Below are positions 11,093 to 43,336 of a stretch of DNA of 64,000 nucleotides, piece by piece (position 1 is the stretch's first letter; the number at the start of each line of letters is the position of its first letter). A program made the position numbers and the translations under genes. The notes under the pieces are model-generated. The model searched no databases and was not told the DNA's origin. It saw only the letters and a list, made by a program, of their open reading frames with translations. The stretch is taken from the NCBI GenBank assembly GCA_018292915.2, contig JACVVK020000381.1, positions 452,001 through 516,000 on the forward strand, written 5' to 3'. This DNA comes from Batillaria attramentaria. Lineage: Eukaryota > Mollusca > Gastropoda > Batillariidae.

Positions 11093-11374
11093 GTAGCCAT
11101 GTGCTCTGCTAGGGTAAAGTTCAGCACACACAAACTCCCGTAATTCCAGTAGCCATGTGCTCTGCTAGGGTGAAGTTCAACACACACAAACTCCCGTAAT
11201 TCCAGTAGCCATGTGCTCTGCTAGGGTAAAGTTCAACACACACAAACTCCCGTAATTCCAGTAGCCATGTGCTCTGCTAGGGTAAAGTTCAACACACACA
11301 AACTCCCGTAATTCCAGTAGCCATGTGCTCTGCTAGGGTAAAGTTCAGCACACACAAACTCCCGTAATTCCAGT
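11093..11374. repeat. 56-bp tandem array, 5 copies
   Basis: The unit begins GTAGCCATGTGCTCTGCTAG and ends CTCCCGTAATTCCA. Five nearly identical copies differ by single A/G changes. Confidence 0.9.
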
Positions 11375-11414
11375 GAACTGTTGCATTGAGGTCGACTCAA
11401 AGATATTTTGCTTT

Positions 11415-11480
11415 GTTTAGAGATCTCTTTTCACCGGCACACAAAATGTTTAGAGATCTCTTTTCACCGGCACACAAAAT
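11415..11480. repeat. 33-bp direct duplication
   Basis: Two identical copies of a unit starting GTTTAGAGATCTCTTTTCAC lie side by side, 40 bp beyond the 56-bp array. Confidence 0.85.
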
Positions 11481-11867
11481 CTAGTGAAAATGCTCACACT
11501 TCAACAAGGCAGCAAGACAAAAATGTTGGCTCGTTGGATCAAACCACCAGACTTTGTTGTAATCAGATACATGCCACCGCCTGCTTTCTACATGAAGTCC
11601 AATCAAATGGAGCATATCTGTTGTGTTGTATTTGAATGCAGGCATTTACATTATTATATAATTATATTGTTTAACGTGGCTCTGCCATATTGACCATACG
11701 GTATTTTTCTGTATGTGTGTGTGTCCATCGTACATATGTGCAGTACGTTCTTGGAAAGTGACCACCATTTTGTCGGCATCACTCACACAATCATATGTAG
11801 CTTGTGTGAAGTTTAAAAAAAAAAAAAAATTGTCCTCAGTCCAACATGTCTCTTGTTTTCAGTCGTG

Positions 11868-12038
11868 TCCTGTGATTCTGTGTGTCCTGTGATTCTGTGT
11901 GTCCTGTGATTCTGTGTCCTGTGATTCTGTGTGTCCTGTGATTCTGTGTGTCCTGTGATTCTGTGTGTCCTGTGATTCTGTGTGTCCTGTGATTCTGTGT
12001 GTCCTGTGATTCTGTGTGTCCTGTGATTCTGTGTGTCC
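11868..12038. repeat. 17-bp tandem array, about 10 copies
   Basis: The unit is TCCTGTGATTCTGTGTG. One copy is shortened to 13 bp. Confidence 0.93.
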
Positions 12039-13010
12039 ATCTTTCAGTACATGTATATCAAGCACAAGGAGTTTTGTCATTCAGCTTTTTTTGGGGGGGT
12101 GGGGGGGGGGGGGGGGGGTGGGGGTGGTAGTTGCCTGGAGTCAGCCTCAGGGCTCTGACCATTCTGTTATGTGCTCATGGTCCGAAAACACATCAGGTTT
12201 TTCCAAACTTTGTTTTTGTTGTTAAATTTGTTAAATTTCCTGATTTTGTCAGAACGGGACTCTTTTAGCCGCGAAATAGTCTCTGTTGCTTGCGTGGCGT
12301 TAAGCCCTAAATAACTAACTGATGTTTGTGTTTTGCAGTTTTGTGAGAAGTAGATCAGTGTCCAAATTGTTCTGCTTGTTTTAAAGTTTGACAAATGGCT
12401 TACGGGACTCCTTGAGCCAGACTGTTTGGTGTTGCATGAAATAAGCTGCCATTAAGGCTTAAGGCTTCCTCTGTTGGTTTTTTTTTTTTTTTTTTTGGGG
12501 GGGGGGGGGGTGGGGGGGTCTGTAGATTTTATGGCTTTCTTTTTTTGTCTCTGCCGCTGACTGGAGGAGTGAGTGGGACTTATCTTCAGCTCCATCTGTC
12601 CGTCTGTGTGTTCGTCTGCAAACACTTTTTCTTGCAAACTTATTGCCTGGTATTGTTTTTGAACATGTGGATTTGATTTCTCCATTTGCATTATGTATGT
12701 ATGTATTTTTTTGTGTGTTTTTTGTTGTTGTTGGGTTTTTTTATGGGGTGGGGGGGGGGGGGCACCATTTACTGCTGATTGTTCTCGATCAGCTTATGGG
12801 TTTTTTTCATGTTTTTTTTTTTTTTTAATACATGTTGCAGTTTGGTGTGTATTTCATTTGCTTTTGGATATATATATCAGCAGCTTGCAGAGTGAGAGAG
12901 AGAGAGAGAGAGATGGACAAACGGGAGTATGTGTAAAGATGCCATGTTCACTTTCCAAATTAGGGAAAATGTAGGTAATGAATGCATAACAAAAAAGCTG
13001 TTAGACTTCA

Positions 13011-13258
13011 CACTTGACTGTCAGAATGAGAGTTTCTTCACACTTGACTGTCAGAATGAGAGTTTCTTCACACTTGACTGTCAGAATGAGAGTTTCTTCA
13101 CACTTGACTGTCAGAATGAGAGTTTCTTCACACTTGACTGTCAGAATGAGAGTTTCTTCACACTTGACTGTCAGAATGAGAGTTTCTTCACACTTGACTG
13201 TCAGAATGAGAGTTTCTTCACACTTGACTGTCAGAATGAGAGTTTCTTCACACTTGAC
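13011..13258. repeat. 30-bp tandem array, 8 copies
   Basis: The unit starts ACTTGACTGTCAGAATGAGA and is perfectly repeated. Because 30 is a multiple of three and the unit lacks stops in several frames, long ORFs appear on both strands; they have no start context or family match. Confidence 0.95.
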
Positions 13259-14161
13259 TTTGATTTTTGAATTCATGCTAATGTAAGAGTGGTGGTCACA
13301 GTTCGTGTTCCATTTCTTCCATTCACTGGTGCATCTGTTTATAATATTTATCATTTATTTGTTTATTTATTTTTATTGTTTTTTTGGTTTTTTTAAATGG
13401 CAAATTGGTATGAAGCGATCATTCATGAGCATCATTAGCTGAGTTTTGAAGTGGTGGTTTTTTTTTAATCATTTTGCTTCCATGGTGAAATTACTATTCA
13501 ACTTGTTTTTGAGCATTTTGTTGTTGGTTGGATTGAAATTTGTATCACTTTTCTTTTGTTTTCCCTGGTCGTCACTACTCCTTGATAGACTGACTTTAAG
13601 CTGTTTTCTTGAGTGTTTTGGCATAATCTTACATTTGCTACATTTCTTTCCTAACCTCTTGGATAATTTTTTTCTATAGTATTTTTTTTTCTTTTGGTAT
13701 GTATGTCTGGTTATTCCATGTATCTAGCATATTATGTAAATGCAGATGATATGTATATATGTTTATGTACATTTACCTGCAGACTCCAGTTTGCATGTTT
13801 GTCATGCTTACAATTTTTTTTTTAATGAACTCCGTGTGCGTATATATATATAGGTGCGCCTACAGAAGTAAGCAAGCCTCTTTTGTTTTCTTCAACTTAC
13901 ACCTTTTTGTTTGTCCCCCTAATTCAGGTGTTGAAACATCCAGGGCTGAAAATGTTCCACGTTTTAATGGATTTCCACTTTGGGCTCAAATTTTCCTAAT
14001 CTGAAAAAGTGTGTTTCCTCCTCTGAAGTACTTATGATCATGTCAAAATGCACCAATTTAAACAGATTTTAGTACTTAAAAAAATAAAAAACTCAAGGGG
14101 AGCATCCCTCCGGACCCTTTAGCATAACACGTCTGCTTTGCAGATGCGCACTCCTGGCTTT

Positions 14162-14827
14162 GCCACTTTGACACTAAATCATGCTACACTTTGTCACTAA
14201 ATCATGCTACACTTTGTCACTAAATCATGCTACACTTTGTCACTAAATCATGCTACACTTTGTCACTAAATCATGCTACACTTTGACACTAAATCATGCT
14301 ACACTTTGTCACTAAATCATGCTACACTTTGTCACTAAATCATGCTACACTTTGTCACTAAATCATGCTACACTTTGACACTAAATCATGCTACACTTTG
14401 TCACTAAATCATGCTACACTTTGACACTAAATCATGCTACACTTTGACACTAAATCATGCTACACTTTGACACTAAATCATGCTACACTTTGACACTAAA
14501 TCATGCTACACTTTGTCACTGCTACACTTTGTCACTAAATCATGCTACACTTTGTCACTAAATCATGCTACACTTTGTCACTAAATCATGCTACACTTTG
14601 ACACTAAATCATGCTACACTTTGTCACTAAATCATGCTACACTTTGTCACTAAATCATGCTACACTTTGACACTAAATCATGCTACACTTTGTCACTAAA
14701 TCATGCTACACTTTGTCACTAAATCATGCTACACTTTGACACTAAATCATGCTACACTTTGTCACTAAATCATGCTACACTTTGTCACTAAATCATGCTA
14801 CACTTTGTCACTAAATCATGCTACACT
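14162..14827. repeat. 23-bp satellite-like array, about 29 copies
   Basis: The unit is ACTAAATCATGCTACACTTTG followed by AC or TC, giving two variants (GACAC and GTCAC) interspersed along the array. One copy near 14515 has a short deletion. Homogeneity is very high. Confidence 0.95.
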
Positions 14828-16154
14828 TTTCCTCCTTGTGGATCGTGGACAATTTTAAGCCCTGGACATTTTTTGACAATAGAGTCTGAAAGTATGATAA
14901 GTATGACTGTTACGTTACACTGTACCATCTGTAACCCTGTAACAAATTTGTTCGTGGTGCTGCGTGGCGTCACATTTTTGTATGCAGCCTCTCAACAAAT
15001 TTGTTTACATTTCTCTCAGCGTCACCATGTAGATGGAGGTTTTGAAATCTCAGCGGGTTTCTGCTGTAGGTGAACAAGAAAACAATGCAATCCACAGATT
15101 CCAATGTATTTTCACGTTTTTGACTTTCCGCGTAATAATAAAGTGAAAATACTTTTTACTACCGTTGTAGTTTTGAACTGTCTTGTAAAGAGACATGTTT
15201 TGTACAGGTCCTGTATCAAATATATATTTATTCAGCTTTCGCAAGGCTGAATTATGTTAAGGGATTACACTAATTTGCGTAAAATGCTTTCTAAAATTAT
15301 TTTCTGCCAGCAAAAGAGCTGAATCAGATTTTTTACAGACTTTGGTAGTGTCTTTGATAGGACAGGCTATATTCATTATTTTGCTGATTCACTGTAAGTG
15401 TTCTGTAACATTATTTTCTGCCAGCGAAAGAGAGATAAGTAATAGCTTATTCACAGACTGTGGTCGCCGCTTTGACAAGACGGGCTGTGGTACTCACTTT
15501 GAAAAAAAGGGAAAGAAAGTAGTGTAAGAATTGTATCCTATCCCAAACAGCAAGAAAGCCAAGTGTGTGTGTGTATATTCTCGGGGGACTAAGTGACCGT
15601 GTTAATGAAATCGCATCATAATGTCCAGGCGTCCGTTTTACAGATTGAAACACAACTGTTGAGGTCAGCAGTTCGCTTTCTCCGGAGAATGCTTGCTTCC
15701 GTAGTGAACAAATATTGTATTCAACTTCTTGTATCAGTTCTCATATTGCCTGCAGTGCTTATCTTCAAACTTCTTATGGGCTTGTCTGATTGTTTTTTAT
15801 GATGACACTGTATTATGATCACTTGCAGTACTGCGAAATACATGTACATATTTTGATGTATTTTGGAAAAAAAAAAAAACAGCTGCATGCTCTATTTTAT
15901 CATAATTTATTATTATTTTTGCTTTTTGATATCTTCACGTTTTTCTTTTTTTTTTAATAAAGAAGAAACGGAGGTTGTAAACTTCCACTCTGTGTGCCTG
16001 TGACTAGGAACTGCAAGTTGATCATAACGTATGAGAAGCCCATTAGAAGTCGGAGCCAGATAGGTTTTTTTTCCCCCTTAGTGAACGAGTCAAGTTTACA
16101 CCAGCAAGTGAACAGCTGGTCTGTGTTGTTCCATGTCTGTGTATTGTGACAGAA

Positions 16155-23632: not shown

Positions 23633-24931
23633 CGGCAGGGAAATAATCAAGCCTACATGCTACAGTCAAGACCCTGAAGCACGAACTTGATACAATGTCA
23701 CTACTGGCTCGCTCGATCACTGAACTGATCATACCATGATGTCAAGTGTAAGTGAAGTTTGTACGAAAACTGCATCCACACTACAGGGCTCTTGCGGCGT
23801 GATTATCAATTGGACATGTCATAGCATATTACGATCCCATACCCGTACAAATATGCATTATGCTAGCTTGTAGATCTGTGACAAAAGATGGAAATGGACA
23901 CCGGGCAAAGATACAGAAAGACGACACTTAAAAATTTCATAAGCATGGAAATAAGTACCTGATACTGTGTTAATTGTGGGGTAAAATGTCACCTGTACTA
24001 GATGGCAAAGCGATTTTCCAAGTCTGTTGTACTCATCCAAAAATCTGCAAACTCCTTTCCAAGACAGCCTGGTGCCAAAAAAAAAAAAAAAAAATTAGAA
24101 AAAAGAAATGCTTGTCAGCTGGACAAGTAAGAAAAAAAAAAAAAAGGTCAACTTGCCCTGATGCGTTTCACCCATTTCAGACGAGCAGACTGACTTTTGC
24201 CAGCCTCATACGTCAGTACCGAGGGACTGATTGGCTGAAACGTTTCTTCAAGGACAGAGCCAGTTACAGGGGGGAAAAACTGTAGCACCCTACCTCTTAT
24301 AAAGCACCCTTCGCACCCTTCGTATAAAAACCAGTGTGGTTTGTTGCTTATCGTATACCCGGAAGAGGCCAAAGTAAAGTCACTAAAGATCTTTTAAAAA
24401 ACACACACACACACACAAAAAAAAACACACATGAACATGAGCTGAAAATAAAATATGCACCGCAAAATAGATTCATATTCTGCACAATTTGCAAACAAAA
24501 CTTGAGGCGGATGTTGATAGAATGTGTGGGAATGTGAACATGTACCCGATGCATGTAGCCTCACGAACAACATCAATATATATATATATATATATATGTT
24601 TTTAAAACTCAAATCCCACATTTCCGGCCAGCAAACGTCACAGATCAGAACAATAACCACGGCTTTTAAATCCTAATTCCAAGGGGAGAAAACCCTCTCC
24701 ATAACCAACGGATCTTCAACTTTTCACTTAGAAGACGAGAGCAACATTAATTTCATGACAAAAACAGACAGGCATCACGGCATTTTTATGGGGAGTCATA
24801 TACCAGTACTGGCACCAGTGCACAGTTCTTGATGCCTCAAAAGTGGCCACAATCAAGACATCATAACAATAAAATCGTTTTTCTTATTCAACCTCAGAAT
24901 CCAATCAAAAACACACAGAATAGCCAGCACT

Positions 24932-24995
24932 CCCCATGACTGTCACTTCCCACCCCATGACTGTCACTTCCCACCCCATGACTGTCACTTCCCAC
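24932..24995. repeat. 21-bp tandem repeat, 3 copies
   Basis: CCCATGACTGTCACTTCCCA is repeated three times just downstream of the Dicer stop codon, in its presumed 3'UTR. Confidence 0.9.
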
Positions 24996-25029
24996 CAGCA
25001 CATGGTACATTCTGCTGAACTTCCTCGAC

Positions 25030-28000
25030 CTATGCATCTGAGTGCAAGTTACGGATGAAGCGCAATGCCTTCTTTGCTGCCGCACTCTTCGCAATGCGGT
25101 AATTGCGGCCAACTCCGTAGAACACGCCCTTGCCGACCACATTGACCGTGACACGAATCTTGCCATCAAGTGTACGCTCAGGTTTTCTGTGAACACAGGA
25201 AGAAAATCAAGATTTAAGAATTATGAAACCAACTGAGTATGAATATTTGTGCGCAGTGCACTGTTATCACTGACAAGAATCACTGAAAATAGCATGAGCA
25301 TGTTTACTGTATTCACCAGTAATCAGATATGTGCCAAATTTTGGCAAAATTCAAACTTACTCAAACTTGGCTGTCTCTGGCTCCATCTCTAACAGTTCTC
25401 TCACTGGTGACTTGGGAATGTCCTTCAGATATTTGTCTGTCGAAGAAAAGAGACACAGATGGAAGAAAAACTACAACAAACTGTAAAAAAAAAAAGAAAA
25501 AAAAAAGCCCCCCCCCCCCCCCCCCAAACAAACAAACAAAAAACCAACAACCAAACACCCCCCCACCCCCCCCAAAAAAAAACAAAAAAACTAAAGAAAC
25601 ATACCCCCCCCCCCACCACCACCACCACCACCACCACCACCACCAAAAACAGAACACACTAAATAAATAAATACACAAAATTAAAAACGTGTAGCAGGTT
25701 TTTTTGGGGGGTGGTGTTGTTTTTACAAACATGATAAACATAACAAGGGGATTTGGCTTAGTGGTGAAGGCACCTGCTATGGATCTTGATGCATGGGTTC
25801 CAATCCCCTGATAAGCAGGAACTTAGTTGGGAGTTTTCCTTACCAAACTGCATCAAAATTCATGTGCAGACTTGTTTACGACGCCTGTTTTGCTTTCAAG
25901 TGCACGCCCACGCATAAATACCAAGTGTGCACGACAAACATGCCATACCATCCTGAGGGGCCATGGAATGGAAGCAAGTACTAAATATATATGCATGAGG
26001 AGGGGAAGTAACAAACATTTATGGCAGTACATACATAAATAGCAACTTGCTTGCCCATGAAGAGGAATCTGAACTTCCCTCACTAAGGCAATGGGACAAG
26101 AGGGAAGTACGCACTATAGATGAAACTGAAGCACTGGTACTGACAGAGATACGACACTCACCAATATGCGGCTTCATCATGTTGTAATAGACGCGCCACA
26201 CTGTATCCAGAGACACTGGTACTGACAGAGATACGACACTCACCAATATGCGGGCTTCATCATGTTGTAATAGACGCGCCACACTGTATCCAGAGACACT
26301 GGTACTGACAGAGATACGACACTCACCAATATGCGGCTTCATCATGTTGTAATAGACGCGCCACACTGTATCCAGAGACACTGGTACTGACAGAGATACG
26401 ACACTCACCAATATGCGGCTTCATCATGTTGTAATAGACGCGCCACACTGTATCCAGAGACACTGGTACTGACAGAGATACGACACTCACCAATATGCGG
26501 CTTCATCATGTTGTAATAGACGCGCCACACTGTATCCAGAGACACTGGTACTGACAGAGATACGACACTCACCAATATGCGGGCTTCATCATGTTGTAAT
26601 AGACGCGCCACACTGTATCCAGAGACACTGGTACTGACAGAGATACGACACTCACCAATATGCGGGCTTCATCATGTTGTAATAGACGCGCCACACTGTA
26701 TCCAGAGACACTGGTACTGACAGAGATACGACACTCACCAATATGCGGCTTCATCATGTTGTAATAGACGCGCCACACTGTATCCAGAGACACTGGTACT
26801 GACAGAGATACGACACTCACCAATATGCGGCTTCATCATGTTGTAATAGACGCGCCACACTGTATCCAGAGACACTGGTACTGACAGAGATACGACACTC
26901 ACCAATATGCGGCTTCATCATGTTGTAATAGACGCGCCACACTGTATCCAGAGACACTGGTACTGACAGAGATACGACACTCACCAATATGCGGCTTCAT
27001 CATGTTGTAATAGACGCGCCACACTGTATCCAGAGACACTGGTACTGACAGAGATACGACACTCACCAATATGCAGCTTCATCATGTTGTAATAGACGCG
27101 CCACACTGTATCCAGAGACACTGGTACTGACAGAGATATGACACTCACCAATATGCGGCTTCATCATGTTGTAATAGACGCGCCACACTGTATCCAGAGA
27201 CACTGGTACTGACAGAGATACGACACTCACCAATATGCGGCTTCATCATGTTGTAATAGACGCGCCACACTGTATCCAGAGACATGCCGCTGTCCAGGTA
27301 GATGGCGCCAGCGACTGACTCGAAGATGTCTCCTAGCGCCTTGGGGATCTCCAGCTCCACCTCATCCTCCTCCGGCCCCCCACCGTCCTCCTCTGCTGTC
27401 TCCTCATCCTCATCTTCCTCCTCCTCCACCTGTCAGACAGGAACAGGTGTGCGTCTTGTAGTCATAACAACTTGTCTGTTTCATCAATATCCAACAGTAT
27501 TTCTCTGTCTCATCCCTAACTAAACCCAGAACGAGCCTCAAAGTTCCTAACAGAGCCCCAAGTTCTTGCTGTCAAAATCATAGCATGAGCTTATTATGAC
27601 ATTAAGTTTCAAGAGTATATTTCAGACTGCCCCATCATTTTACTTGTCTGGTCTGGTCAAACACTTAGCAACAGACATTTGGTGATGTCTGGTCGAAAAG
27701 TAAGATTTATCTTTCCTAACTTTCCTAAATTCTGTGCTGAGACTAAAAAGGAAAGGCAGTTAAAAATTTAAGAATTTTTTACATGATTAAAATTTTAATG
27801 AGGTACTGTAGGCTTATGAAAAATATTCTTTTGTTTATTTATGGCAAAACCTCAACACTGAAACTAGTGAAAGGCTCAAAACACACTAAGGAGATTTTTT
27901 TTTTTTTTTTTTTTTTTTAAATGATCTGCTTGTTACCAGTGTTTATTACTGAACACCAAACCAAACCCAGAATCATCAGATTAATCATCAAATTAATGCG

Positions 28001-31000
28001 ACAGCCTTAACTTGCAAGTCATCTTACCTCATCGATTTCATCAAACTCGTCCTCTCTGTCTTTCTGTCGCACAACAAACTTGTCGATGACAGCGAACAAG
28101 GATGGGGAGATGGCCTTGAAGTATTTATGGAAGTCCCATTTGACTGCCAATGCCGCGAAGATGTTGTTGTTGACCAGGGCAGAGCGCAAGTCGGTCAGAA
28201 TCCCAGGTGAGTAGCGCTGTGAGTCTTCGTACAGGTGACGTGTGATCACATAGTCCAAGATGGCATCACCCAGGAATTCCAATCTGCAATTAGCAATGAC
28301 AGACAACTCGTTGATGAACATGTCACAAGTTTACATACTACTACTACTACTACTAATAATAATAATGATAACAACTACATGTCGTACAGGCGCTTTACCC
28401 AATATCTTGAACTGGCTCAACGCACCGCGAACTCAACCCAACATGCACGCTCACGTGAATCACACACATTCTCTCACTGGACACACTGGACATTACAATC
28501 ACATGGTATGCAGGGTCAGCTCAGCTTTAATTATGAGTTTCAGAATTTGGAACTGCATTTATAAGCATAGATATGTCAGAAGATGGGCCCTTCACACGAC
28601 CAACATAATCTACACAAACATCACTAATACACCTGTGCAGTAACAAAAAACAAGAACAAACCAAAATACAACAACAACAAAATATAGATTTGAGGATTTC
28701 AAATGTAGCCACCTCTGGTAGCAATCTGTGATGTAGTTGTAGTGATAGGACGCATGGGTAAACGCCTGGAGAAGATAGGACCGATCACGGAATGTGTAGT
28801 TGATCTTGGATTCGAACTCCGAGAAGCCTTCTAGCAGTCGGTTCAATATATCTGTTGCTCCTGGCACGCTCTTGATAAGAGGGGATGGCGGACACTGGAG
28901 TTCCTCGAACTCATTCATGTTCACCTGGTGTAGGTGAAAATGAACAGCATAGGGTTTTCATTTTAACGCCCAACAAAAACTACAACACCAGTACACAATG
29001 TTTAATTGCCCCATCTGAAAATACAGAGACATACATACACAAAGATGGGAAGCAAATTACACTTGTGGTTCTGACAGACCACACTTCTGGAACTGTTTAA
29101 ATAATCCTCACATGGCTTAATCACTGGTTTTACTCCCTCATGTACGCAAATCAGAACATTTTGAGGCATTTAGTTTTTCTCAATTCATGCCAGGTCTGGG
29201 TAATATTGTTTAGTATTTGAAGCTGCAGCATGCCACGAAGTACCAACTCTGGAATTCATTGAAAAATTTCTGGTACAATTTTTGGTCCGTGGCCTACTTC
29301 AACATTTTGTCTGGATACCCTCACCCAAAACATGTCTGGGTCTTTTGGGGATCAGCTGGAGGTGTGAGTGTTCGGCTACGTACACAATTCACAACATAAG
29401 CAAGATCCCAGTCTATACAAGGGTGAAAGCAGCTGCACGAAACCTTCTCCTATTCTTCCCTATGTTTATTCCCTGATAAAAAAAAAAAAAAAAAAGGTTG
29501 GCATCCACCTTCTTCCAGTCATCTTACCTCATCACTGCGCTTTGCATCAGAGTTGACTGTCCGTTTCCTTGGCAACACTTTCAGGCCCAGCCATGACATG
29601 AACGTGAGCGCGGCCTGCTTGCCGCATGTGGTGAGGTAACAGCCAATGAGCGCCTCCACGCAGTCGGCCACACTCTTGTCAGGGATGCCGTGATGAAGCT
29701 GCAGACTGTAAGGAACCATGGCGTGCTTGGTGCTGCTGCTGATCTCATTCTGCTCGTCCACCGCCTGCTGTCGGTTGATTTCCTCTACCTCCTGTTGGAA
29801 GGCCGCTGTCTCTCGTTTCTGCTGGTCGTCTAAGGAGAGCACAGGCAGAATGGTGAGTTATGACAGGGTAGCTTCAAGTTCAAGCCGCAATGACCTTGTC
29901 TGGCTTACAACGTTGTGGAAAACTTTTCATTGAATGAGATTAACTCCTTCAGTCCTTGTTTCAAAACAGTACTTTAACACAACAGACCAACGTGAAGCCT
30001 CCTGTCGTGGGTGGGGTGGGTGTTTGGGAGTTTAACACCCTTTTCCACCACATACGGGTGACATCAAAGACGGGGCAACAATGAAAAAGCCAGTACAAAT
30101 ATTTGGCCCCAGTCAGGAGCTCTTGTCGTAATTTTGCCCCAAGCTTAGTACAAAGCGTACATCCAAAACTGGTAAACTTGGATCAAACATGGATCCACCG
30201 TGGAACTTGTTGTTTTCCATGAATTACGGAATTTGTATTATACCAGCAAACATCATACTTTCATACTGGATTCCAGAAATCGTAAAAAAAATGTAAAATA
30301 CAATTGATTGGCAGCTATGGGAAACTACGATGTTTTACAGGAGGCATCCTGCCTGTTGGTTTAGGGTTCGAATTCCACATGGCAGTGTTGACGCCACTGT
30401 GTGATAATGATACAGATAAAAACTTTACCTGCTTCGGTTTCCTCCTCCTCAATGACGAAGTTGACTGGTGCGGCCGCGGACAGTTTGGGATTAGACGTAG
30501 CAATCACAACCTTCGGCACTGGTCCCCGTCTGCGATCCTCGCTGATTATGTAACCAGGTGGTAACCAGTTTTCATACGGCTCAAACTTGGTGGACACCAT
30601 TCTCTCAGCGAGTCCTTTGCGTCTCCCGAGCCGATACAAGTTGTAATTACTGACCTGGAAACGATCTTGTGGTGATTAGAATAAACACTGGAAGGTGTGG
30701 TGGATTATTCATATTAGCAAGAATCTATCTAACAACTATATGAAAAAGTACCAGCAAATTCCTTGGAACGCTGGATTCAAATAAGCTGGCCCCCCGCACT
30801 GTAGTGGTTAGCACTTTAGACCATGGACTGGGAGACCCCGGTTCGAGTCCCAGCCAAGGCAATCAGGATTTATCCTACCTAGGTCAGCTCCTACCCAGTG
30901 CTATGGGCCCAATGGGGAGGCTGTTGCTACACAGCCGAGACTCATCCACTTCACAGGTGCGACTTTGATGGTGGTTTCCTTGTTATGACACATCTCACGA

Positions 31001-34000
31001 TGTGGATGATTACACAACCACTTCTTGAATTGTGCAGCAACACCACCAGTGACAGGCAAGATGAACAGTTCCTTGACAGCTCTTAGTCTTATTGCAGCAA
31101 AAACAAGTATCACCGAAGTGCAACATTCCCATTGAGCCAAATTAGGAAGCCAAATATCTTGGAATAGGCGCGTTTTACAAAAAAATTTAAATATAAACTG
31201 GAGAAAACACAGGAAGACCAAACACACTCAATGACATACCTGTTTGCTGCGCAGGTAGCTGAGTTTGCCCTCGTGTGTGCCCGGGTAGCAACAGTACAGG
31301 TAGACTGTGATAGCGTACTTCAGGAAGGAGTCGCCAATCGTCTCCAGGCGCTCCAAGCTGAAAAAGTCATTAGCGTTGGACATGGTCAGAGCCTGCAGCA
31401 GCAGACACGGGCTTGGTCCCACAAACGTTTCAAGGTCGTGATCTTTGTCAAGGCTGATGGGTGTCCTTGACCTTGGTACTTCAGCGTCAGCGTCATCGTT
31501 TGAAGGTGGCTGAGGTTTCTTGACCGGGGGGTTCCACACTCCGATATCAAACCTGTCAGTTGTGAAGTCTGGAGTGTCGCTAGAACTACAGGCCTCTGTT
31601 GACATGTCACATGGTTTGCTTCTGTCAGTGTCGGAAGTGTCACCCCTTCCCTGAAAGCCGCCTGTCTCAGGTGATGCTTCAACTGTCTCGTCCAGGGAGC
31701 AAACGTTCGATTGTGTTTTGTCCAGGGAGCAGTCGTCTGATTTTGTTGAGCTAAGCTCTGCTTCCGGTAATTCCATTTTCCGAAGTTTATGGCTGACTAG
31801 GCCCTGATGCTGTCTGCCTGTTGAGTCAGCTGGTTCTTTTTCTTCCAGTGCTGGTTTGTCATCACTACATGTACTCCTCTTTGGTCCGTTCTGCTCTCTG
31901 CTGGTACTTTCGTCCAACACCTTCTTGTTGTTCGTTTCATTCTGCAGTACTGAACGCTCCTGGACTTGTGCAGCAACACCACCAATGACAGAATCTTCAA
32001 CCTCAACTACAGTTTCATCCGTACGTTTCTGTGCATCTATTCTTGATGGGGTGGTTTGATTTTCATCATTTGTTTGGTGGGCAAGCTCAATAGGGTTCTG
32101 AATAGTACAATTAACATCTTTTGTGGATTTTGCATCGGCGGTGGGATTTTCAGTCTCAGATCCTGCCTTTTCAAGCACAGCATCATCAAACGGTTCTGTT
32201 CCGCTGTTGATCTGAACATCAGCAAACTCAGGCATGTTCCCACTGACTTCAAACGTAGTCAGTGTTTCCTCAGGGGCCCATTCTTTGCCTGACGTTGCGC
32301 CTGAGGTGTTGGACCAGTTCAAGTCCAGGCCGACTGAGTTGAGATTATGCGCCGTGTCAAAGGTCAGCTTCACTTCATCACGAGGGTCGGCAAAATGCGA
32401 GATCTCAGGATCCACGGGGAATGTGGTTGAAAATGTTTTGTCTGTGCGGTGGTTGGAGTTGGACCCTGTAACATCGAGAAAATCATCACAGCTGTCTAAA
32501 GTTTCGTCCGCATCCTGAAACGATCGCTCGGTTGCCTCACTCTGGGTGTGTGAGGTGCTGTGCTTGGCGCTTTCTTGTGCATGGAAGGATGCGGAGGAAT
32601 CGTCACTTTCTTGACTAGAACTACACGCTAAATCACTGTGTTTGGCAAACTTCAGACCCTGTTCCATCTCTTTTTGGCAGGAGTGGTTGCATGGGTTTGA
32701 CTCAGTGAGATCATGTGAGAGGACACCAACGTGCAATACATCATTTTTTTTGTCACCGGCAGGCTGCATGGCTTTGGCGTCACCTGTGTGTTGCGATATG
32801 TCATAGATATTTTCAGGCCCTTGCTGCCTGCACTGTGAGATCTGTGCGTTGTGTGGCAAGGTAGGTGGCAATGTCGTCTTTACCGTTGAGTCTTGATTCT
32901 CTTGGAGCACCGAAGGTGAGAGCGTAGATGATGATCTGTCTTCGATGAGGAGTGAAGAAGATGACAATGATGACGACGACAAATGGTGCAGAATGGATGA
33001 ATCTGATTGGCTGTGGGTCTGATTGTGCATTTGGCAGGCAGTATCACAGTTTTCGCCTGACGCTTTGTGAGATGAAGTTTTGATGGTGGGTGATTCGTCC
33101 TCCCTGAAACCCTTCCCAGCATCTGATGATTCGTGAACCACACATGGCGTCGAGGAGGTAGCACCACGCAAATTAGCACCTTGGCATGATTTCCCTTGTT
33201 GCAAAGAGTTTTTCTTGACTTGTGATTTGGGTTCACTAGGGATAAATGGACTGGTTCCATCTGACGAAGAATATGGAAGTTCCTGTTCTTGATGTGCAGC
33301 TGAATTTGCATCACGCTCGGTGGAGTCTTCGTCCTGAGGGTGTGTAACCACATCCTCACAGCCTGGCTTTGAGACGGACATATCGGTGCCTTCCAGGCAT
33401 GTGCTGTCGCTTTCACTGAATACGACTCCAGAGTCACTGTCTGACGAAGCACCAGTATCGCACTTCTCCTCTTCCGGACTGGCACCTTTGGCAGAGAACT
33501 GTTCGCTTTCATCTTGAGAATTTTTGCACAAAACTTGTGCGTCTTTGCCTTTCTTGTCATCAGACTGTGACTGTGTAGCATCCGATTCCTTTGAGGATGG
33601 TGTGGCGTCACTGTCTTCATTCTGACCAATACTCTGCAGCTTCTCCGGATTGGTTTCAAATCCAAAATCCAGCCTGGGAAACCGGAAGTCTGGATCGAGA
33701 TTCACTTTCCCAATTCCTGTCGCCGCTGCGATAAGCTTGCGGAGCTCTTCAGCCAGGAGCAGGTAATTCATGCGATACAAGATGGCCGGCAGACAGACCG
33801 CTTTGCGCCAGAGGGAGGCAGAGAAGACATGAATGTCACACAACTCCGGCACCAGTATCTGCTTCTGCTGAAGATTTTCCCGCCGCGCTCGTTTGGTCTC
33901 CAGGCTGCTCGTGGGCAGTGCTCTCCCCTTCTGGTTCATGTAGCGTGGCGTGAGGAGGTTCAGTCGAGCCGACGTGTGATCAACATCCAAAAGAGGCTGC

Positions 34001-37000
34001 TCCATGTTGGTGAGAACCAGCCCATACTTGGTGGTGTAATACGCTGCGAACGTCTTGTACAGCTCCGGAGACGGGAAGGGACTTAAGGGACTGAGGTCAC
34101 TACGGATCTCAGCCACGTAAAAATGCTGCGGCTGGTCAATGTTTCGGTAGGAAGGCATCACCACCGCATCCTCAAAGTGTTCCTTCTCAAAGCAGAACAC
34201 GTCTCGCTTGCCGTCAAACACATTACGCTTTTGCACCACGCTTGTCACATTCACCTGATCAACGAACGACCATTCGATGTCCAGATCAGCGGACCCTGCA
34301 GACACAAATACAGAAATTGACAAAAGCTAAATTTGTAGTTTATTACAAAGACTGAAAGAGCGAATATCTGCATAATGCAAACTTGGGCAGATCTATGCAA
34401 CAGTAATGTGAAACAAAAGCATAAGAGCCATGTTTCTTTTCAACTGTGAGAAATGCAGGGTAATGGGTCTGCTTATATTTCAGAATGTGTTCAAGATTTT
34501 TACTTCAAATTTTGTGTGCAATGTGTGTGTGTGTGTGTGTGTGTGTGTGCTTTAAGCGCAGCGAGTCCTTGAAGCTGGAGAACAGCGCTCTATAAAAGCC
34601 ATGTATTATTATTATTATGTCAAAGGGACCACGTTTTCTGGGGCACAGAGTTTCGGCAAGCATATACCATCATACCTGGGGCACACGTGGTCGGTCAAAA
34701 AGTCAACAACACTGATCCAAACTTTTCTGAGATCTCTCGTTTTCATTTGCCAGGATTGGAGTCCAGCCTTCATCAGAATAATCACTCAACTCTTCGTCAG
34801 AATCATATTCTGGCCCTGCGGTGTCTTCGTCAGAATCATATTCTGGCCCTGCGGTGTCTTCGTCAGAATCATATTCTGGCCCTGCGGTGTCTTCGTCACC
34901 ATCATATTCTGGCCCTGCGGTGTCTTCGTCACCATCATATTCTGGCCCTGCGGTGTCTTCGTCACCATCATATTCTGGCCCTGCGGTGTCTTCGTCACCA
35001 TCATATTCTGGCCCTGCGGTGTCTTCGTCACCATCATATTCTGGCCCTGCGGTGTCTTCGTCACCATCATATTCTGGCCCTGCGGTGTCTTCGTCACCAT
35101 CATATTCTGGCCCTGCGGTGTCTTCGTCAGAATCATATTCTGGCCCTGCGGTGTCTTCCTCACCAAATATTAGGTGACAACTTTGGCTGCACCGAGTTGT
35201 TTTCTCTACCTCGCCACCATCATTATACGCATGATTCATCATTATACGCATGATTCATCATTATACGCATGATTCATCATTATACGCATGATTCATCATT
35301 ATACGCATGATTCGCTGGTCAGGAAGGGACGGAAGGTTTGTTTTCTCGGTCTCGCCACCATCATTATACGCATGATTCGCTGGTCAGGAAGGGACGGAAG
35401 GTTCTGCCCCACGTGTTTAGAAAAACTTGAGTTGTACCAAAATAAACAAGGTCGAGGGGTGAAGGGTAGGGTGTGGTGAAGATATGCTTGGCAAAACACT
35501 GTACCCTGTAAAAAACGGTCCTGTTTCTTAAGACTTCAAGGCAACTAAAGTCGCCTGTGGTGGCCGAACGGCATGTTGACAGAAGTCGCCTGTGGTGAGT
35601 GAAACGGAAGTCTTACCATCATGTGCGTTGAGAGGAACAATAATGAAGCCAATGTCCGCAGCATCAGGAGAAAACAGCATGGGATCTTTCTCCAAATGCA
35701 GCACGCTGGAGAACACAAAATGGTGGAACCCTCGCAGCTTTTCCAGCTGTTTCTCAGAGTAGTGGGCCTTGCGGAGTAACTCCATCACCACAGTCACCTC
35801 CCCTGACCTTGTGTACACTGGGAAGCTAGGCACCTATAGAAATAAAGCCACGGACAACAGTAGTGAGTAAAAAATGTTGACAGACGGGACGAACATCAGC
35901 ACTGGAGGGGGGACAATGGACACAACGGCTCAGACACTCCTCCATCCAGTTCAACAGAACAACAGCTGTATTTTTGTAAACCACTCAGTTTGCTGGTCGC
36001 AGACTACATCATAAAATAATTCTTTGTTCATGAAAGTAATGTGTTTTATACCATTTTATTATGCGTAGTACAGCTGCATGGCCTGTTCGCACAGTAACTC
36101 CCTCCGAAAATTAAGGCCCAGAGGGGTTAAAGTTTGGAGCATCAGTTTCAAAGCAAAATCCCTTACGTGTGGTATTTCTGTCGACAGCAACACTCCGAAC
36201 GACTGAAGCGTCTCCTCCGGTGCATAAATCTTGCGGCCGCGTGTGTTCTGCTCCTCTGTGATTGGCCCTGTTAGCAGCATAGCCACCTGATACAGGTAAC
36301 ACTCTGCATTCTCCCTGGGATGACTGCTCACAAAGGCATCTGCTGGCTGAAAAAACAAGGGCGAATATTGTTATTATGACTTACTTCATGAACTCCCACA
36401 ATTTCCAACACCAAAATGTTTCTTGGAGTTGACTCTGAGCCACTTACAATCTTTCTTTCCTCTTGACTTGTTTGGTTGTTGTTTGTATAATTTGTTTTTA
36501 TTATTATTATTATTATCATTATTTTTTATACTTTACTGTCCCTTTTAGCAAAATCCGCCGGCTTCCCCCGGGGAAGCGCTTCAGCGCCATCCAAAAACAT
36601 ATCCATTTTTAAATTTTGCTGGGGAAGGAAACCAGATATTCCGGAGAGAAACCCCTGAAGAGCAGCCTGGTAGCCAAAAAGGACCGGTATCAGGTATCAC
36701 AGCTCGACCCGGGGCTTGAACCCACACTTTGCTGTGACAGCGGTGGCGGCTGTTTTGTAGCACAGCAGCTAAGTCAAACACGCTACTCAGGGAACGCAGA
36801 AGAAGAAGAAACATGCTACCTATTGGACCACCGCTCACCCCTTTATCAGTATCATTTGGGAGTGGGGTGGGGGGTGGGGGGGGGAAGGGGACACCACTGA
36901 CCAGGTGAACTGAAGCCAATACAAAATGACAGGTGTATAGACTGACCTTCTTGATGTAGTACTGTTTGCGTTTGGTGGTACCTGGTCGTGCCTGACCCAA

Positions 37001-38136
37001 CGGTTCATCCTCATCGTCCTCCCACTCCTCCTCCTCCTCACACACAAACATTTCCTTCCCCACCGGCTGCAGCTGATTGTCCAGCTCACCTGGTGAAACA
37101 GTGACAACCATCAGCAGTGCAACTCTCCCTCCTAGTACAAGCAACAATACCTCCCCATCGTGTGGTTGGGCAAAAGAATTTTTAAAAAACAACAACAACA
37201 ACAACAACAAAAACCAGTTTCTGACCATACCAGTCCAAAAAAAGTGGGTGTGTGGTGGGGGGATGGGAGCCACATAACTTATGTTAAAGTGTCATCACTA
37301 GTAGATATATAGTCATTTAAGAACATGTCCTAAGTCGGCTCAGCTCGTTCAAGCTATTAAGAACAATAAAGTCAAAGGGTGGACAAACTACACAGTAGTA
37401 TACAAGTTAAATTGCGATAACCGCCCATCACAGTGAGAGCAAAGCATAATAGAAATTTCTTACATGCACAATCATTTTGATTTAAACTTTCAAACAGTGC
37501 AACCGCAAGTTCTGATTTCTACATTCATTACTGCTGTTAACGTGCCATCGAGATGTGCATTTGAAGAGGAGACAGAACCAGTACATCTCCAAACATTATG
37601 AGAGTTAACGCCGAAATGTGCACCTTAAAGGTGATCAAGCACCATTACAGACTTTTCACCACATTGTACACGACGCAGAATAAACAAGACGGAACAGACT
37701 TAGAATTTTGGCCAGCGAGAACAGATACAGAAAAGTCTGTGCAAAAAGTAGTCACTGGTACATCAACACCATCACAATCACGGTGCACCGTGAAGTGGAG
37801 CAGAGAATCGGAGTGAAATTTCCAGCGCACAACAGCCAGCACGCCACATGTGACGCGTCATTACCGTAACGCCTGATGGCTCGGCTATCGAGTCTACTCA
37901 GCCACCCCCCACAGTGTAGCATGAAGCGTAGTTCCAACCACATACCAGCTTTATACAGCAGCTCGCACATCTTCAGGGCCACCGCCATCTTGGCAAGCTG
38001 TCGACTGGGCATGGGGACACCCTGAAAGTGGCGAGAAAACCTTTAGTGCGTTGTACACTTGGTCAACTCAACAATAAACGTTAAGACAGCACACGGCTCC
38101 ACAATTAGTGAGTGCTTGCAGCGCTTAGGGAGAGGT

Positions 38137-38194
<58 letters not shown>

Positions 38195-41100
38195 CATAAC
38201 ACACAAACCTGTTCCTGGTTGCCTTTTTGTGTGTTTTTTTTCTTCTCTTTCTGTGTTATGTGGACAATACAAACCATGACTTCTTCTTTGATAGGGGAGT
38301 TGACTGGCAGGCGTAGGTAGGCAATGAACTGACTAGGATCTTCATCTGATGGACACACGCGGCAGTGAGGGGTGAGGTGGGTGAAAGCGTCACTCGGCAG
38401 CTTAGCGCAGTATCTGTTTTGGGCAAAACAAGTGGAAATTTCTCTAACCATATATAAATAATCGATGTGCCTAGACCTTTGATACCCAACAAAAGTAACA
38501 TCAAAAGCGCCTACAGCAAGCTGCAGTTGTGGGTGTGATGTGTGTTTTGAGGTTTAACGTAAGCTGTCAAGCGCAAGAGTGATGTTAAAGATGAAGGCAC
38601 TAGAAATTTTCAAGTCTGTACAAAACTTGGCTCCTTCAGGGGTTTGAACTTCCTAGGAAGTCACAGAAACTGTTTAAAAAGAGATCAAAGTTGTTTGCAC
38701 TTCAGCTATTGTCTGGTTATAAAAGAAATGCATCACTGGTTTAATTTTTAAGAGCACTACCAGTGCCTATCCACATGTAAATACCTGTTGACCAGAGCAA
38801 TGGCATTTTTCATGGAGACGGCCGGAGCACCTGGCTGACCCAAGGGACAGAATGGTGGAAGGGGAGTGAACTGCAGCTTATCCAACTGCTGCACCTCTTG
38901 GGCGTCTTCAAGATCTTGTCTCCCACGGCCAGAACCAATCAAAACCTGACACACATCAATTCACATCAGGACTATTACATAGTTGTAATATGTACACATC
39001 TTACAGTTACATTTGCAAAGTGCAGATCTCCAATTCCAAAAAAGAAAATCACGTTTTTCAGTTATAATGCACAGTCAAAATACACACCTGTTCAATGCCC
39101 TTGAACACCTGCAGCTCCTCTGAGAAATCTTCCATCAAATCCTCATCCACAAGGATCACATATTCCGCATCACGAGCCCGAGCTCGACCCTACAAAATGA
39201 AACACAATATATAACCACTGTTTGGCAGATCCTGTATAAGACCATTTTCATGGGGAAACTTGTCAGACAAAACTTACATAAAAGCAAAAGCAATGAGGAA
39301 GCTTGAAGGGGTGCAACTGAAAAGAACATCCTGCACTAGTAAAACGAGCGATGCACAATATAATCTAACACTACATTTTTCTGCTATTAAATCAATGGAA
39401 ACTTAGACAGAACAACTTACTTTGGATAATGTGTAAGAACGGTAGTCACGGGGTGGATCAAATCGGACGACTAAATTGCACTTGGGTATATCAACTCCCT
39501 CCTCCAGAACACTGGTTGAAATGAGCAAGTTTCGTTCCTGCATGCGGAACTTGCGTAACACTTCCTCCTGACGACGGCTGGCTTTGCTGAGATCCTTCCT
39601 CCCATCTGGCCTGTGAATACCCTGACCCGTGATGTGACTGCTTTTCACAAAGCACAGATTCTCATCCCACGAGCAGACTTCTTCAATCATCTTGTTTAGA
39701 GCGAACGCAATGTAACGGTTATCCACGAACACAAGAGCACACAGCTTCTTTTCATCGTCGAAGGGGTAGTCGCCATCATTTCTCTCCACTCTCTTTTTCA
39801 CGGCGATGTGGATGTGCTTCGTGCCGCCACTTTTGCCCTCCTCGTCATCTGAGCTGGAGAGATCCAGAGAATCATCATCACCGTCATTGCCGTCATCGTC
39901 GGACATGTCAGACAGTGCGTCGTCCTCGCTTCCTTCTCTCGTGATGATCATGAAGTCCATCTCTGGTTTAAACTTTTGCAGAATTTCCACAAACTCTCTC
40001 ACTTTGGGAGTGGTGTAGCTCAGAAGTTCCTCGACCACATACTCGGGCGTAAATCTCATTTCAAACACCCTTACGACCAGTCGCAGCTGAGTCATAGTGT
40101 AGCGCAGGAAATTTTTCAATGTTGGATTGGACTGATGCTTTACAATCTTCTCTAGCTGGCTGATCAAATTTTCTGCGATGGAAGCCGCACACCAAGGACC
40201 TAAAGTCTGAAGAATATTTATGCACTCGGATATCGCAAACTTGGGCACATGCAAAGGGTCTGATTTGCCGGGATGGTCTTCTATTTTAATCTGGCAGTCA
40301 GACAAGAAATGCCAAGTGCTGTATAGTATAGAGGACAGTTCTTCGCCGAGTCCTGTGGTATCCTCGTACGTCTCACACTCCACGATACTCTCTTTTGGCC
40401 GGCACCCAAACCTCTCGGAAATCACCAGCATGGAGGTCTCCGCCTTCGAGTGCAAGACTGACTCCAGGCTGGCAATTTTGGATGCAAGTTCGTCCGGATT
40501 GCTCGACTCGTTGCCCAAGATGGAAGCTGTGAGGCAGAGCAGGTGTGGCGCTGCATCCCCACTCTTCCTCACATGAGACATGATGCCGACGTACGCATGG
40601 TCACCCACAGCCAGGTGACAGTTGTCCAGGACTAACAGGTTCATGGAAGACAGTGTCAGCCATCTGTTGACCAGACAGTTGAGGAAAACCGTGGCTGGTA
40701 GAACCAGGATGTTGTGTGTGTTGACAAACTCTGCCCACTCTTCCTCTTCCCAAGTTTCCGTTTCCGCGCACGTTGCCTTGCCAACCCGTAGATCGGTGTG
40801 GTGATATAGTGTGCTCCATAATGTTTCCAGGTCCTCATCTGCACATAAAGTTGGTAGGTTAACTCTTTGACGACGGTTCCTATAGGAAATCGTGTGTCAG
40901 AAATTGCGCTCCGTCGTCAAAGAGTTAACTTGCTGCCATTCACCAGCAAGGCTGCACATTTTGTTGGTAAAGGTTAGAAAGGTTCTTCTCAATGCAAGTC
41001 AGCTATGTGGCTTGTAAAATGATAACACACACAGTTGAAACATTTTGCTATGATGGCAAGACAACTACAATCTTTCAGTTTATGATGGTAATCCAAAGTA

Positions 41101-43336
41101 AGATTGTCTTGCGTAATTTATCTTGATTGCTGCATTTAGTCAGCTCTGCGTACGGATGTTCACAGGGGTTCAGAGGGTCACACAAAGGGACAGACAACCT
41201 TAAATGTATAATTACCAGTGTCTGCCAAGTAAACGCTCCTCTTTCCACCTTCTTGAAGAGAGGCACGTATCTGATGGGACATCTCACGGATGACCATGAG
41301 ACCCAGGAAAACCTTGCTGGAGCCGCTGCCGAGGCAAGCGATTGTGTTGCCACGCAGTGCCGACTCCAACAGCTCCACCTGGAAAAAAACACACACTTTC
41401 GCAATCATGATTTAACTTGATTAATGTTGGTCAAACCCTTACAGGGTAACTTTGTGCATGCAGCAATTTGGAGGTTTCCAGTTTAAAAGAGGGGAATGGA
41501 ATGGAACTGTTGAAGTTTTCTACATTGTTACAAAATATATCAGTCCCCCCCCCCCCCCCCCTCAGTTTTCAAATCAAGACAACTTACCAACTCATCAGAC
41601 ATCTGTTCGCCTTTTTTTTCTTTTTTTTTTTGCTGCCACAACTCTCTTTGCCGGCTCCAGTGGTGTTCCTCCCTGGTAATGGGTGGAATCCACGGAGGGC
41701 TCGGATTAAGTCAGGGCAATTTTTATTATGCATGATGATGGAGATGAGGATGATGGTAAGACGATGCTATGGAGGTCCGTGTGGTTTGGGACTGCGGGAC
41801 AGGGCCGCATTCCACGCTTCCTGTCATAAATATCCCGGCATAAACCAGGCCCGGGAACTACGGCACCTGCGGTGCCGGCCGTGTAATCATCCACATCATA
41901 AGACGTGTCATACCAAGGGAAGCACCCCCAAAGTCGCACCCGTGAAGTGGGTGAAGCTCGGCTGTGTGGCAACAGCCTCCCCACTGGGCCCATAGCACAC
42001 CCGCTCTGGGTAGGAGCCGACCTAGGTAGGAAAAATCCCGCTTGCCTCGGCTGGGACTCGAACCCGGGTTTCCCGGTCCATAGTCCGAAGTGCTAACCAC
42101 TACACTACGGGGGCCGGTTTCTGTTCGCCTGTTAAATTAATGAATAAGTGATGAATATAGCCAGAAGGTTGAAATAAATCATGAATGATACCCACATATG
42201 ATGTACCAGTTTCCAGCAAATCATCACACTATATGTAGGATAGTATAAACAAAGACATTACATTACCAAGATGCGCCACTCACTATATAACGAGTGACGT
42301 CCGCCAAGTGGGTTGCGTCCCTTTGGTCTGTCAGGGATACCGCGGGTAATAATATGTCTTTGCAATAGCGCCGTACGTGTGTTGTCGCTCACTGTGACGC
42401 AATTACAGCCGATATAATCGGTGTAAATTTGTTCACTAGGGTTCCGGGGGTGGGGTGGGGGTGCATTTTCACATTTTTCAGGTTTTAGTTCATGTGGTTT
42501 CTCTATCATTGTCTTTTGTCTCTTGGATGTTACTGATCTGTGACTGATCAACATCGTTTTGTGCTGTTGTGATCACTGATGTGGCGGTGAAATTTTGGTT
42601 TTGTATCAAGGTTGTTTCCGTCTTACCCTGTTTGACAGGTCATAAAAATTATTTCACCAAGTGTGTCCCACATCTGACGAATAATGCAGGTATTCTTTGT
42701 TTTTGTTTTGATATTCCCTGTCTACATGAGTATACTTGAACATGTGCCCAAATTCACACACAGGGATTCACAAACATTACGTGCAGTACGAACACTGACA
42801 TGGGGAGAGTGACAGAAAGACAAAGAAGGTGAGGGATACATAAAACAGTAAAACTGAAACAAGAGTGGATACAATCTACTTTAATGATGTCATGAAATCT
42901 CCGACAGAACCATGTCAAGTGTCAAAACAGCAGAAAACCTCATCTGCTTTTATGGCAACATTATTTTCAACCTTGACTCAAGTACCCATCAAAGGCGCTG
43001 TATTTCATGTACGAAGATCCAGCCGTCTGACTTTAAAGAAGTCATGAAATCTCTGACTGAACCGTTTCAAAACAGCAGAAAACCTCATCTGCTTTTATGA
43101 CAACATTATTTTCAACCTTGACTCAAGTACCCATCAAAGGCGCTGTATTTCATGTACGAAGATCCAGCCGTCTGCAGTTTTCTACCCATCGACTGCACCT
43201 GAAGTACAATATATACGCCCGTTAATGTTGATATTATACACCATGGCCCATTAATGCCTAGTGGCCCCGCCACGATGATCCATGCAAACAGCGTGGGTCT
43301 CAGTCACAGAGCCACTAGGCACTAACAGGATCATCT

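Follow-up and report, generated by a model that had tools for sequence, protein, structure and literature searches.

In the 64,000-nucleotide window of Batillaria attramentaria DNA (the whole stretch that was analysed), the 3′ end of a Dicer exon and its splice donor form a tandem array on the minus strand (26132 to 27284; period 82 bp, 14.0 copies, 99% matches, score 2265 by TRF). To judge from its sequence, the array is probably a young minisatellite seated at the donor, nearly neutral in effect and leaking some truncated or NMD-bound transcript. A previous sequence-only reading of this DNA had given 14 copies at 82 bp, which is borne out, and an array end at 27282, which is corrected here to 27284.

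Gene model and canonical junction

A Dicer gene on the minus strand (25030 to 41378) was modelled with 17 exons (a to q) from Dicer chain matches, Pfam matches and exon joining, in agreement with the gene, strand, phase and repeat unit proposed earlier. Exons b to q (16 exons), joined at GT-AG sites, gave a single open frame of 2,319 residues, and a pseudogene reading was rejected for these exons, in which the frame is unbroken and the only stop is terminal. Exons a and b can be brought into one frame with an AG lying 17 nt deeper, which sets the exon start at 40862 (VYLADT-VNLPTL, judged by eye); their joint is uncertain, and hence so are the first five of the 2,319 residues. No N-terminal exon was found upstream of 41378, the single match of a motif scan there being attributable to chance. 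When pieces of the gene were scanned apart, Pfam matches were obtained to Helicase_C, Dicer_PBD, PAZ, Ribonuclease_3 (the start of RNase IIIa, and RNase IIIb in the spliced end) and Dicer_dsRBD. The gene therefore carries the domain set of an animal Dicer (helicase C-terminal domain, partner-binding domain, PAZ, two RNase III domains and dsRBD), the DUF283 dimerisation domain being recognised by eye only, and the best PDB matches of its protein pieces were Dicer chains.

Two regions of the gene stood out apart from the array. Exon j (31240 to 34295, minus strand, 3,056 nt) contributes about 800 residues that separate the PAZ match from the RNase IIIa match and that, by eye, contain much Ser, Asp and Glu. 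In the helicase region (39421 to 41378, minus strand), exon a reads GSGSSK where the Dicer helicase motif is GTGSGK, and DNCH and YTLSK are found against DECH and YVQSK in the aligned Dicer chain; from these residues the helicase looks degenerate, perhaps that of an ATPase-dead Dicer.

The last 228 residues matched Endoribonuclease Dicer chains (E = 1.4e-88) and Dcr-1 (E = 1.4e-77). The gene model closes with exon o (27231 to 27429, minus strand, 199 nt, the end of RNase IIIb), exon p (25361 to 25436, minus strand, 76 nt, the linker and the start of the dsRBD) and the last exon, q (25030 to 25186, minus strand, the dsRBD and the stop). The joint of exons o and p was ungapped in all five printed alignments, every one of them to a chain named Endoribonuclease Dicer. 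Because these alignments cross the joint without a gap, the canonical junction was taken to run from the donor at 27230 to the exon start at 25436, and the junction 27230/25437 given in the sequence-only reading is thus correct. The intron between them, which bears the array (25437 to 27230, minus strand), measures 1794 nt, more than any other of the 16 modelled introns, and removal of the 13 extra units would leave 725 nt; the shortest modelled intron of the gene has 142 nt.

Two further features lie in this intron. A stretch resembling tRNA A and B boxes by eye (25747 to 25812, plus strand), perhaps a SINE, gave no ARAGORN call and had no second copy in the window by blastn; the only ARAGORN match of the window was a tRNA with an undefined anticodon at 42043 to 42114 (minus strand), perhaps a tRNA-derived repeat. 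Near the acceptor, long C runs and (CCA)n were seen at 25509 to 25645; read in the direction of Dicer, they are G runs and (TGG)n.

Structure, age and origin of the array

Each 82-bp unit consists of the last 52 nt of exon o followed by 30 nt of intron beginning with the donor GTGAGT, and the end of exon o itself (52 nt, or 54 nt with a shared TG) is copy 1. The 14 donors claimed earlier were all found on the minus strand as one identical 9-mer, TTG/GTGAGT, so that every unit carries the exon's own donor (14/14), a trait shared with the splice-donor VNTR of ABCA7. With head-to-tail units in the range of about 10 to 100 bp (82 bp, 14.0 copies, 99%), the array belongs to the minisatellites. The exon is probably the source and the intronic copies derived, because the exonic share of the unit codes for part of a conserved domain. 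No relative of the unit was detected elsewhere in the window (no exact 14-mer, no ungapped match above 41/82), and none of 4,227 known RNA families reached its gathering score in 24500 to 28500. The clustering of 14 near-identical 82-mers is far beyond chance.

The 13 donor-to-donor spacings were 82 nt in ten cases and 83 nt in three, each 83 being due to one extra C (copies 8, 9 and 13, in mixed order). Among the 13 units, nine were identical, three had the extra C and one had two base changes. The identity of 99% and the presence of only three unit types argue for a young array, and the 2-bp match (TG) common to both break points fits an ordinary origin by slippage or end-joining. An alternative, that the genome holds one or few copies and the unit was multiplied by the assembler, draws on the identity of 9/13 units and on the place of the one-base gain of three units in a short C run, length change in such runs being a common long-read error type. 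We consider an artefact of this kind very improbable, since the three unit types occur in mixed order, unlike the copying of one path, and other arrays of the window are equally regular by TRF.

Arrays across the window

The chance that an array touches an exon edge was estimated with 15 loci picked by hand from 53 TRF rows (period of at least 10, about 2.3 or more copies, overlapping rows merged), and with subsets of 12 loci (3-copy cut) and 8 loci (4-copy, 15-bp cut). Microsatellites and two-copy repeats (including those at 11414, 23488 and 50377) were left out, as were the rows at 131, 59097 and 63226, which have 2.3 to 2.6 copies and might equally have been kept, and the boundaries were the 32 of Dicer exons a to q only, other genes being left out. 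The probability that a founder unit crosses any Dicer exon boundary was 0.205 with 15 loci, 0.189 with 12 and 0.163 with 8; for Dicer donors alone it was 0.108, 0.096 and 0.086, respectively. When the three in-gene arrays were placed within the gene, the values were 0.239 for any boundary and 0.123 for donors; the 82-bp unit taken by itself gave 0.156 and 0.080, respectively. An array crossing an exon edge is therefore not surprising here (P 0.16-0.21), because arrays are common in the window. Overlap with a modelled exon was found for one of nine larger arrays checked, the 82-bp Dicer array.

Several of the other repeats were characterised. Four larger arrays (units of 56, 17, 30 and 23 bp; up to 29 copies) lie within 3.7 kb at 11093 to 14829. 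The intron between exons i and j contains minisatellites at 34791 to 35313 (33 bp × 11.4 and 19 bp × 5.1 by TRF); the 33-bp array (34791 to 35165), which has an acidic frame with an 11-residue repeat, was ruled out as coding, exons i and j joining in frame around it, and the open frames of this region are by-products of the 33-bp period. A Ty3/Gypsy-like element on the strand opposite to Dicer (45117 to 50187) has one stop-to-stop frame of 1,426 residues (RT, RNase H, integrase), and its insertion is probably very recent because the 315-bp direct repeats at its flanks (45117 to 45431 and 49873 to 50187) are 100% identical.

Strength of the donors

Splice sites were scored with matrices that are rough, being built on 15 donors and 16 acceptors of the gene (the exon o donor and exon b acceptor were left out). 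The array donor scored 6.96, the 98th percentile of 566 intronic decoy GTs, and the leave-one-out scores of the other real donors were lower in 6/15 cases and higher in 9/15. By predicted U1 duplex energy it was the best of the 16 donors of the gene (-11.1, the next -9.6). Donor 1 (27225 to 27230, minus strand), the exon-proximal and canonical site, is followed by 13 equal ones down to donor 14 (26156 to 26161, minus strand), the most intron-proximal. Local RNA structure hiding some of the donors was rejected on the similar predicted openness of all 14 (0.26-0.40), with a mean unpaired value of 0.40 at donor 1 vs 0.26-0.36 at the others; donor 1 is thus predicted to be slightly more open, a weak signal only. 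Two exons of this gene reach 1459 and 3056 nt, so a limit on exon size need not protect donor 1.

So many strong predicted U1 sites (14 in about 1.1 kb) could also act as a decoy that recruits and holds U1 and slows the removal of the 1794-nt intron, and retention by decoy exons is an idea already present in the accessible part of the literature. The protein outcome would be the same as under near-neutrality, and we hold such a role to be extremely improbable.

Predicted products of the extra donors

Read-through from donor 1 meets a TGA after 28 codons, which overlaps donor 2 (27143 to 27148, minus strand), in keeping with the stop within about one unit that had been noticed earlier. By translation, the same TGA overlapping donor 2 would end the products of donors 3 to 14 and of intron retention, and splicing from donor 2 to exon p would create a TGA at their junction. 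With each of the 13 extra donors, residue 93 or 94 is the last one read in the exon-o frame before the stop, which lies 75 to 1059 nt upstream of the last junction. These 13 donors, and retention as well, are therefore predicted to converge on nearly one product lacking the dsRBD, with RNase IIIa and IIIb whole and a shared C-terminus (33 residues, with or without a final W) in which 27 or 28 new residues follow RNase IIIb.

This convergence, with RNase IIIa and IIIb left whole, and the best predicted U1 pairing of the gene would suit a leaky truncation switch, in which donor copy number sets the share of dsRBD-less or NMD-bound transcript and so tunes Dicer dose or activity. Such a switch is unlikely: by the 50-55 nt rule the stops lie in the range of NMD, which may therefore remove a product whose stop is at least 75 nt before the last junction.

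Internal AG sites

Thirteen intronic exon-like segments, from an AG to the next donor, were delimited at 26162 to 27208 (minus strand). Measured from CTGTCAG, 10/13 have 60 nt, phase 1 at both ends and no stop (copies 2-7, 10-12 and 14), and the other three have 61 nt and are frameshifted (copies 8, 9 and 13), the splicing in of which would lead to a stop; the segment lengths, phases and extra base reported in the sequence-only reading are confirmed. The 22-nt gap between adjacent copies was likewise reproduced. Judged by length alone, it is too short for a new intron between neighbouring copies (22 nt vs 142 nt for the shortest modelled intron), a verdict that does not extend to joints of non-adjacent copies. 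Since copy 2 is only 22 nt from donor 1 and not plausibly joined to it, nine in-frame copies (3-7, 10-12 and 14) are reachable from that donor; the ten usable copies stated before hold as arithmetic only.

The main AG before each copy scored 1.32, the 82nd percentile of 403 intronic decoy AGs, with 2/16 real acceptors scoring lower (range of real acceptors, -1.61 to 12.57), which leaves its use conceivable; two purine-preceded AGs (AAG and GAG) in the stretch ahead of it speak against use. Two further AGs per copy, 6 and 21 nt on, scored 0.83 and 2.88. Overall, the array multiplies a good donor and an at best weak acceptor.

Frame-preserving cassettes, in which non-adjacent copies would each be spliced in and add 20 residues between RNase IIIb and the dsRBD, had been put forward from this arithmetic. 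The arithmetic stands, with ten of the 13 extra segments passing stop-free from phase 1 to phase 1, and the further AGs would also keep the frame (54- and 39-nt cassettes), the one scoring 2.88 exceeding 5/16 real acceptors. The main AG, however, is in the range of decoys, the shortest intron linking non-adjacent copies by that AG would have 104 nt, below the shortest modelled intron of the gene, and by eye no branch point is free of AGs between itself and the acceptor. Moreover, 3/13 copies are frameshifted, and a segment spliced in after residue 151 of the 228 would interrupt the Pfam Dicer_dsRBD match, which spans 139-225. Taking these points together, we see a very slim chance that the copies serve as cassettes.

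Comparison with known systems

The closest precedent found is the VNTR of intron 18 of human ABCA7, which, according to the accessible part of its description, is built of 25-bp units that begin with the donor of exon 18 (PMC5954066). As in the Dicer array, a minisatellite from an exon's donor multiplies that donor in the intron, and out-of-frame donor use gives premature stops; the ABCA7 unit starts at the donor GT, whereas the 82-bp Dicer unit includes 52 nt of coding exon, and VNTR length was measured and RNA tested for ABCA7, whereas the Dicer array is known from one DNA sequence. In the same partial account, the isoform retaining one unit amounted to 2 ± 1% across the tissues tested, independent of VNTR size, and skipping of exon 19 increased with VNTR length (PMC5954066). 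By analogy, these results suggest that the donor nearest the exon prevails in spite of numerous copies, and that consequences may instead be seen at the next exon. As skipping of the next exon grew with length, an effect on Dicer level is possible; this tracking would favour the leaky truncation switch, against which the size-independent retention speaks.

Truncated Dicer has a counterpart in a human splice variant of neuroblastoma cells that, in the portion of the report available, lacks the dsRBD and one RNase III domain (PMC4482082). The existence of this variant would lend the switch some support, and both cases involve a frame change near the 3′ end that gives a dsRBD-less Dicer; the human variant arises from exon skipping and also loses one RNase III domain, unlike the predicted array product.

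New introns can arise, as far as the parts consulted describe, where exonic or boundary sequence is duplicated in tandem and supplies splice sites (PMC4974935, PMC2891723). There as here, a segment spanning or supplying splice sites is duplicated in tandem; those duplications gain a new intron, whereas the many copies of the Dicer array, 22 nt apart, are too close for introns between neighbours. In oyster AOX, exon 10 is duplicated and both copies are present in mRNA, by the accessible part of the report (PMC5589949); the likeness lies in a duplicated exon of an invertebrate that is used there for variants, but in AOX the whole exon is duplicated, and in the Dicer array the 3′ end only, with no inherited acceptor. 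The array differs from these known cases in the large coding share of its unit and in that all its extra donors lead to one stop. No comparable array in Dicer is described among the matches listed, as judged from titles and abstract openings, subscription papers being outside the scope.

Discussion

On the preferred, near-neutral reading, one 82-bp tandem duplication would have chanced to span the boundary of exon o and its intron, and slippage or unequal exchange would recently have expanded it to a 14-copy minisatellite. The exon-proximal donor at 27230 would be used mostly, giving normal Dicer, and the 13 further identical donors would compete weakly. Where an extra donor was used or the intron kept, translation predicts that the frame ends in a TGA, either at donor 2 or where exon p is joined, and the transcript would lie in the NMD range or encode Dicer with both RNase III domains minus the dsRBD. 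The net effect is probably small, so that near-neutrality of the array and differences in its copy number from one individual to another are expected. Among the effects weighed in the sequence-only reading, neutral growth of the array, with more donors in competition, is better supported than cassettes.

Several points tell against near-neutrality, among them the length-dependent exon skipping in ABCA7 and the two long exons noted above. Among identical donors, an intron-proximal one could be favoured instead, as work on duplicated donors suggests; searches of the open-access literature for such work found none. The donor is middling on the matrix, with 6/15 others lower and 9/15 higher, and the copy number could be an assembly error. 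It is also conceivable, if quite improbable, that natural copy-number alleles act as a dial on the share of transcript with the shared dsRBD-less end, changing Dicer output and small-RNA processing.

The array represents a natural experiment on the choice of the spliceosome among many identical donors, in near-identical local context and in a dose-sensitive gene. If copy number varies, individuals would yield a dose-response curve that would otherwise need built constructs. If the array is neutral, a core gene can bear 13 surplus donors, and a strong preference for the exon-proximal site would gain support.
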